DNA of 64,000 nucleotides, from positions 1,612,001-1,676,000 of the forward strand of contig NC_020891.1 of the NCBI RefSeq assembly GCF_000355695.1. Direction: 5' to 3'. The position numbers and the translations under genes were made by a program. Source of the stretch: Clavibacter nebraskensis NCPPB 2581 (lineage in GTDB: Bacteria; Actinomycetota; Actinomycetes; Actinomycetales; Microbacteriaceae). Each line of letters opens with the position of its first letter. The stretch's first letter is position 1. Under the pieces are notes generated by a model that was not told the DNA's origin, ran no database searches, and saw nothing but the letters and a program-made list of their open reading frames with translations. Shown here in pieces: positions 6,684 to 6,801 of this stretch.

Positions 6684-6689
6684 TACCCT
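6684..6689 (+). promoter_or_regulatory. -10 box TACCCT of leuA leader transcript
   Basis: TACCCT ends 6 nt before the ATG of the leucine leader ORF, the same leaderless spacing seen at many genes in this window. The leuA mRNA would therefore begin at the leader-peptide start codon. Confidence 0.6.
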
Positions 6690-6695
6690 GGTGGG

Positions 6696-6740
6696 ATGCA
6701 GTCCGGTCGCCTCCTCCTTAGTCGCCGCGGCGAGGCCTGA
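6696..6740 (+). CDS. leuA leader peptide (14 aa, three Leu codons in a row)
   Basis: Short ORF encoding MQSGRLLLSRRGEA just upstream of leuA. Three consecutive leucine codons (CTC CTC CTT, 6711-6719) are the hallmark of an amino-acid attenuation leader: leucine shortage stalls the ribosome there and changes the fold of the downstream mRNA. The ATG sits 6 nt after a TANNNT -10 box, so the ORF would be translated from a leaderless mRNA. A hairpin overlaps its 3' end. Conserved LEU elements upstream of actinobacterial leuA have been described by comparative genomics; I infer this is a member or a relative. Confidence 0.72.
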   Translation: MQSGRLLLSRRGEA

Positions 6741-6760
6741 TCCGGCCCTCCTCGTCGCGG
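6725..6760 (+). promoter_or_regulatory. Leader hairpin overlapping the leucine leader stop codon
   Basis: Ten-base arms CCGCGGCGAG (6725-6734) and CTCGTCGCGG (6751-6760) pair with one G-U wobble, and a short GCC/GGC stem can form inside. The 5' arm begins 5 nt after the last Leu codon, so a ribosome stalled on those codons would cover it. No U-run follows, so control of translation or an alternative fold is more likely than simple termination. The pyrimidine run over the Leu codons (6710-6718) can also pair with the GGAG ribosome binding site of leuA at 6792-6795. Confidence 0.55.
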
Positions 6761-6801
6761 AGTCCCGTCACGGCTGACCCGACACCGACTCGGAGACGAC
6801 C

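Follow-up and report, generated by a model that had tools for sequence, protein, structure and literature searches.

The LEU element of Actinobacteria was described by Seliverstov et al. (2005; PMC1262725) as a run of leucine codons that pairs with the ribosome-binding site of leuA, together with a pseudoknot. The text of that paper leaves the mechanism open; its conclusion favours a protein ligand, namely orthologues of Mycobacterium leprae ML1624, a DEAD-box helicase, and it cites mutations in Streptomyces coelicolor that had an effect unlike that of classical attenuation, or none. Its genome set included Leifsonia xyli, a member of the Microbacteriaceae.

Leader peptides with related features have been reported from other actinobacteria. 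In Streptomyces lividans, leuL1 (MRFGLLLLSCRGEGL, then a stop codon) precedes leuA, was leaderless in a study of transcription starts and is reported there to lack a typical terminator (PMC8079986). The leuA leader of Corynebacterium glutamicum, found by RNA-seq, contains four consecutive leucine codons (PMC4046766, PMC3890552). Mycobacterial leaderless polycysteine ORFs are reported attenuators (Canestrari et al. 2020, as related in PMC9031893); they share with the leuA leader a leaderless ORF with a codon run and control of the downstream gene through ribosome speed, and differ in the amino acid, cysteine, and in the genes concerned. The passages on the C. glutamicum leader read it as a transcriptional attenuator, unlike the translation-level reading given here. 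That leader is also said to have been described as leaderless by Neshat and colleagues in 2014. Leaders of LEU type at leuC or leuB-ilvE were not found among the open-licence papers searched.

Here we analyzed a leader upstream of leuA in a 64,000-nucleotide stretch of the Clavibacter nebraskensis NCPPB 2581 genome (the window). Judged by its features and by covariation against the 2005 text description, we assign it to the LEU elements as a new member of the known actinobacterial class, which answers a question raised in the initial annotation of this DNA. The likeness, in the window and its family, consists of a position directly upstream of leuA, an ORF with a run of leucine codons, a base stem between that run and the leuA Shine-Dalgarno (SD) sequence and, inside it, a pseudoknot or alternative hairpin. 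The locus and its relatives differ from the 2005 account, in whose text the words leaderless and leuB are absent, in a conserved promoter spacing and in copies at leuC and leuB. The initial annotation had regarded attenuation by a leaderless leader as mechanistically unusual. This view is not supported, given the precedents of S. lividans leuL1 (PMC8079986) and the polycysteine ORFs (PMC9031893), and the leaderlessness of a leuA leader is not new, being in print for S. lividans.

A leucine leader next to a predicted promoter

The leader sits in a 165-nt gap behind an upstream ORF that ends at 6636 (Table 1). It comprises 14 codons and a stop (ATG CAG TCC GGT CGC CTC CTC CTT AGT CGC CGC GGC GAG GCC TGA), starting with the ATG at 6696-6698, and 61 nt separate its end from the leuA ATG. 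As the initial annotation had stated, this ORF with three leucine codons begins 6 nt past TACCCT, and a 10-bp hairpin (P3), which includes one G-U pair, begins 5 nt beyond the last of them. Because the reading frame is open far 5' in this GC-rich DNA (ORF 4275-6740), the 5' end of the leader is argued from promoter spacing and conservation. A simple scanner gave no match to the sigma-70 consensus promoter in the leader region, and the case for the -10 box is the TANNNT pattern together with its conservation. From this spacing, transcription would start at or within a few nucleotides of the leader AUG, consistent with the earlier proposal that the ORF is the very 5' end of the mRNA. In S. lividans the 5' ends were mapped, whereas the leaderless start of the window leader is predicted from promoter spacing. 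A search of positions 5500-8000 against Rfam 15 produced no family at the gathering score; its five matches up to E 10 were all on the minus strand.

Table 1. Features of the leuA leader in the window
Feature	Coordinates	Strand	Basis or remark
-10 box TACCCT, predicted promoter	6684-6689	+	6 nt 5' of leader ATG; TANNNT at 6-9 nt in 150/150 distinct family leaders
Leader peptide ORF, MQSGRLLLSRRGEA and stop, predicted leaderless	6696-6740	+	sequence read; conservation in relatives
Stem P1, 5' side	6705-6714	+	6705-6709 pairs with 6797-6801 and 6711-6714 with 6792-6795; fold and family swap test (0/500)
Regulatory Leu codons CTC CTC CTT, doubling as anti-SD run	6711-6719	+	sequence; family conservation; swap test
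Hairpin P3, 5' arm	6725-6734	+	fold; alignment with compensatory changes
Strand U, alternative inner helix, just 5' of the stop codon	6734-6737	+	partner 6744-6747; fold; U:M swap 0/500
Strand M, P3 loop	6743-6747	+	partner U (inner helix) or D (pseudoknot); M:D swap 0/500; compensatory changes
Hairpin P3, 3' arm, overlapped by second pyrimidine run 6747-6753	6751-6760	+	fold; compensatory changes
Strand D, pseudoknot 3' partner	6772-6776	+	M:D swap 0/500, compensatory changes in relatives; coordinates read off sequence and alignment
Stem P1, 3' side, containing the leuA SD GGAG (6792-6795)	6792-6801	+	sequence; MFE fold
leuA, 2-isopropylmalate synthase, 588 aa	6802-8568	+	NCBIfam NF002991 and TIGR00970, both over cut-off

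The reading frame and its leucine codons are conserved in the family

Matches to leuA were found in 18/18 genomes of the genus and in 143 of 150 family genomes (7 without a match). The leader set, drawn from 158 loci in 157 genomes (18 from the genus, 139 from elsewhere in the Microbacteriaceae), contains 150 distinct leaders; G117 was excluded because a contig end cuts its leuA, and L018 and L019, both from G007, carry one identical leader. In G007, the match to leuA is split between two frames with their junction near codon 39-40, a possible frameshift or assembly error.

The leader peptide is identical in all 18 genus genomes, and a leucine run is present in all 150 family leaders. In each of the 150, a TANNNT box stands 6-9 nt 5' of an ATG or GTG in the leader frame (128 leaders at 6 nt, 20 at 7 nt, 2 at 9 nt). 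A start spaced in this way in either of the other frames occurs in 1/150, and the in-frame arrangement exceeds chance. SD-like motifs (GGAG, AGGA, GAGG, GGGG) 5' of the leader start were found in none of the 150. The start lies 24, 27, 30, 33 or 39 nt from the hairpin codon, always a multiple of three. The last leucine codon is invariably CTT, a codon that makes up 1 of the 103 leucine codons in leuA and one other window ORF, and at the two preceding codon positions CTY is found in 144 and 139 leaders. The longest leucine run is four in 78 leaders, three in 70 and two in 2, and the stop codon follows the last leucine codon by 18 nt in 130 leaders (24 nt in 18, 21 nt in 1, 54 nt in 1).

A leader ORF might merely recruit ribosomes to a leaderless message and couple translation to leuA, with no sensing of leucine; leaderless transcripts are common in actinobacteria, and account for 17% in S. 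lividans by the figure reported in PMC8079986. That the leucine run, the rare CTT codon and the pairing partners described below are all conserved, and that variants with valine, isoleucine and leucine codons exist at leuB-ilvE, makes this explanation very improbable.

The leucine codons are predicted to pair with the leuA Shine-Dalgarno sequence

In the minimum free energy (MFE) fold of the window leader (-45.2 kcal/mol), the leucine run is paired with the SD. The z-score of this fold is only -1.7, with 11/200 shuffles equally good, and the window sequence alone would therefore not prove a structure. For the 39-nt hairpin piece the folding energy is -22.4 kcal/mol (z -2.5, 1/200 shuffles equally good). 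The longest helix between leucine run and SD has at least 5 bp in 142/150 leaders and 5 bp in the window, where the M:D pseudoknot is also only 5 bp.

We compared each strand's own partner with the partners from other leaders in a swap test, using 118 representatives with less than 80% identity over the tested pieces and 500 permutations, which retain shared ancestry. Own partners were favoured for the leucine run with the SD (-9.01 vs -8.30 kcal/mol for foreign partners), for the P3 arms, for M:D (-7.68 vs -6.78 kcal/mol) and for U:M (-2.93 vs -2.54 kcal/mol), with 0/500 permutations equally good in each case. These differences are modest; on average the own partner outdoes only about one half (0.46-0.56) of the foreign partners, many of which are alike. 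Control pairs were unremarkable in the same test (Leu:D 211/500, U:SD 303/500, M:SD 44/500, U:D 348/500, gap:SD 497/500, gap:D 219/500). A helix between UUAG and D was borderline (6/500 permutations equally good) and is not claimed.

Covariation was assessed in an alignment of 83 leaders (A1) with statistics that ignore phylogeny. P3 is paired in 99.4% of cells, with compensatory changes at three pairs; for M:D, five of six pairs changed on both sides and 64.5% of cells are paired in a fixed register. Taken jointly, P3 and M:D had a covariation score above all 500 shuffles, and their number of double-changed pairs was reached by 19/500; further pair types did not rise above the shuffles (189/500). 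For U:M, whose register varies and which is paired in 61.9% of cells, the covariation score was reached by 0/500 shuffles and the number of double-changed pairs by 162/500. The swap tests support the pairing of leucine run and SD, the hairpin and the pseudoknot. On this comparative evidence we interpret M:D as a pseudoknot and U:M as a competing inner helix, whose strand U falls on the final codon of the leader, beside the stop.

The initial annotation had proposed that CTCCTCC over the leucine codons pairs with the GGAG of leuA, in agreement with the MFE fold and the swap test, and had pointed to a second pyrimidine run at 6747-6753. The second run is real and overlaps the P3 3' arm, but it is a feature of the genus and in folding rivals the leucine run for the SD, which opposes a simple release. 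At 6789-6795 the window strain reads CTCGGAG, where the 17 other genus genomes read have GAGGAG; this variant weakens pairing of the SD with both the leucine run and the hairpin arm.

Control might alternatively be transcriptional, with translation of the leader governing Rho- or pause-dependent termination before leuA, as in mycobacterial and corynebacterial ilvB attenuators. In the accounts of PMC13236596 and PMC10272879, ilvB leader peptides act by termination, and untranslated leuA mRNA could undergo Rho termination anyway. Against this, a simple scanner found 0 terminator-like sites in 6580-6860, so the intrinsic terminator of a classical transcription attenuator was not detected in that interval, the S. 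lividans leuA leader is likewise reported without a typical terminator (PMC8079986), and it is the SD that the conserved pairing targets. We consider transcriptional control unlikely. The pairing of leucine run and SD and the lack of terminator-like sites suggest that, as the initial annotation proposed, the leader probably controls translation rather than termination.

A proposed ribosome-controlled switch of leuA translation

We propose that the LEU element is a ribosome-controlled switch of leuA translation, a reading to which we assign a probability of about 0.65. A ribosome would enter at the bare 5' end of the mRNA, at the leader AUG, and the leader leucine codons would serve as both sensor and anti-SD strand. 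With leucine plentiful, the ribosome would reach the stop 18 nt past the leucine codons and leave, upon which the leucine run would pair with the leuA GGAG and leuA translation would be low. With charged tRNA-Leu scarce, a ribosome stalled on the leucine codons would cover the anti-SD strand and so free the SD, and we infer that it would also melt the hairpin. Strand M would pick either the inner helix with U or the pseudoknot with D, probably setting the 3' part during the stall. The comparison of leaders supports the element, its reading frame and its pairings, and from sequence we infer the leaderless start, the stalling and the direction of control.

We modelled the effect of the ribosome by hiding 30 nt and folding the rest of each of the 150 leaders, a model that ignores the pseudoknot and kinetics. 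The mean unpaired fraction of the SD was 0.15 in the free leader and 0.19 with the ribosome at the stop; placing the A-site on the first, second or third leucine codon gave 0.44, 0.43 or 0.33, respectively. This opening on stalling is what release under starvation predicts, and 130/150 leaders had a more open SD with a stall on the first leucine codon than at the stop. With the mask over the D stretch instead, the SD stays closed (0.18, 60 leaders). In a control with foreign SDs, run on an earlier version of the mask in which one or more leaders had a misassigned SD, openness rose from 0.29 to 0.43, and the stalled state was more open than the stop state in 339/445 foreign and 117/150 real combinations. 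The foreign SD halves thus rose like the real ones, and the rise in openness is not specific evidence.

For the window's genus (four members), mask folding does not predict release of the SD by stalling. The window SD is open at 0.32 when free, 0.19, 0.28 and 0.31 with a stall on the first, second and third leucine codon, and 0.22 at the stop; three other genus members have values of 0-0.10 under stall, and in two of these the SD opens further at the stop (0.25, 0.16). The reason is that the P3 3' arm can pair with the SD: the surroundings of the SD match this arm over 10 bp (G-U allowed) in 8/14 distinct genus leaders, and over 4 bp in the window. In a transcript that folds as it is made, such pairing may be irrelevant if P3 forms first.

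LEU-like elements occur at leuC and leuB-ilvE

An exact-pattern scan of named genomes gave at least 119 loci; among the matches listed, 113 have leuA downstream, 4 have leuC (L216, L232, L258 and L275, by LeuC motifs; L216 also matches TIGR00170 over cut-off) and 2 (L213, L259) are limited by sequence that ends before or just inside the downstream gene. Among the same listed matches, 118/119 have a TANNNT box 5-9 nt 5' of an in-frame start, and L174 has it at 10 nt. Arthrobacter, Micromonospora, Nonomuraea, Planomonospora, Frankia and Glycomyces are among them, so that by sequence matching the element reaches well beyond Microbacteriaceae. A covariance model (R1) matched 18/18 genus genomes and 144/150 family genomes, the latter including the training leaders, and in a sample of the class 176/197 genomes, or 161/173 of good quality.

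Two or more R1 matches were present in 97/150 family genomes. We examined 17 better-scoring second copies among the matches listed (L357-L373), and by motifs all 17 precede a LeuC start, with at least three consecutive leucine codons in the leader and a TANNNT box 6-7 nt upstream of it. For L357, L363, L368 and L370, the best match of the downstream fragment, below cut-off, is the 3-isopropylmalate dehydratase large subunit. For leuC in the genome of the window itself, no LEU element was found at E 0.1, and none was seen upstream of L338. By eye, the region upstream of leuC in the genus (L337-L354) has in most cases a TAGACT box 3 nt 5' of an ATG, and a short frame whose terminal TGA overlaps the leuC SD, with a small inverted repeat; L349 has a broken frame. 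Two loci of the genus (L374 in G001, L375 in G009) have a LEU-like element with the leader MVMRQLLLRRDGS and a stop codon upstream of an MFS transporter gene, and the L374 transporter fragment resembles NF007372 MdtG, below cut-off. Weak second matches in G007, G004 and G014 (L376, L393, L394) have no leader and lie in coding-like sequence, and were rejected.

In other actinobacteria, second copies adjoin leuB on its 5' side. A second model (R2) was built from six such copies, and the best 30 class loci were read: 14 are followed by a LeuB motif (5 of these loci come from the training set), 8 by a LeuA motif, 1 by a LeuC motif and 7 by none. The leaders of all 14 LeuB-motif loci mix valine with isoleucine or leucine codons and 0/14 has three consecutive leucines, whereas the leaders that could be parsed at LeuA (7/8) and LeuC (1/1) each have LLL. 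On a longer stretch, the loci lacking a motif revealed leuB and a small ORF (L402, L406) or the small ORF (L407, L416, L419); L421 showed nothing nameable, and L423 was left out of this reading. LEU-like elements with valine, isoleucine and leucine codons thus stand before leuB or its preceding small ORF at L397-L411, L414-L416 and L419.

The small ORF between element and leuB was found in the six leuB-type loci (L378, L380, L383, L385, L386, L391) and in 9/10 of a further set (L427-L435), the two sets sharing some genomes. Its length is roughly 27-50 aa and a (M/L)D.RD.GG motif lies close to the end; the five that were scanned had no NCBIfam match. Over the NCBIfam cut-off, LeuB was identified in L429, L431 and L432, and IlvE in L428, L430, L431 and L432. 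Further downstream at L433 there is a fragment of citramalate synthase, which scores below cut-off.

These copies bear on the possibility that the LEU element serves primarily as the target of an RNA-binding protein, such as the ML1624 orthologues suggested in 2005, with the peptide as a relic or by-product. That proposal, as set out in the 2005 text, came from the phyletic pattern and negative results of codon mutations in S. coelicolor, and a pseudoknot and strongly conserved hairpin bases would suit a binding site. A protein site does not, however, need the frame, start, CTY codons and stop distance that all, or almost all, of the 150 leaders share, and leuB-type elements retain the hairpin yet swap the sensing codons to valine, isoleucine and leucine. 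A binding site as the main function is, in our assessment, quite unlikely. The valine, isoleucine and leucine codons match the products of leuB-ilvE, which supports a codon-reading switch: if the codons were not read, it would be difficult to account for a codon change that tracks what the operon makes. The copies at leuC and leuB(-ilvE) likewise favour codon sensing over the protein-binding idea of 2005.

Implications

With R1 matches in 161/173 good-quality genomes of the class, the element could be a principal means of leucine control in actinobacteria, although the Rfam search described above matched it to no family. The conserved leaderless-type start, the sensing codons, the pairing of codons with the SD and the copies at leuC and leuB-ilvE together lead to a testable prediction: a single small set of codons would both monitor charged tRNA and mask the ribosome-binding site. 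It is an evenly balanced proposition that LEU elements constitute a single, widely distributed class of leaderless amino-acid switches that act on translation, with exchangeable codons determining their specificity, leucine at leuA and leuC and valine, isoleucine and leucine at leuB-ilvE, where the small ORF comes first. If true, such a class would take the place of the protein-binding hypothesis and settle the mechanism that the 2005 paper left open.
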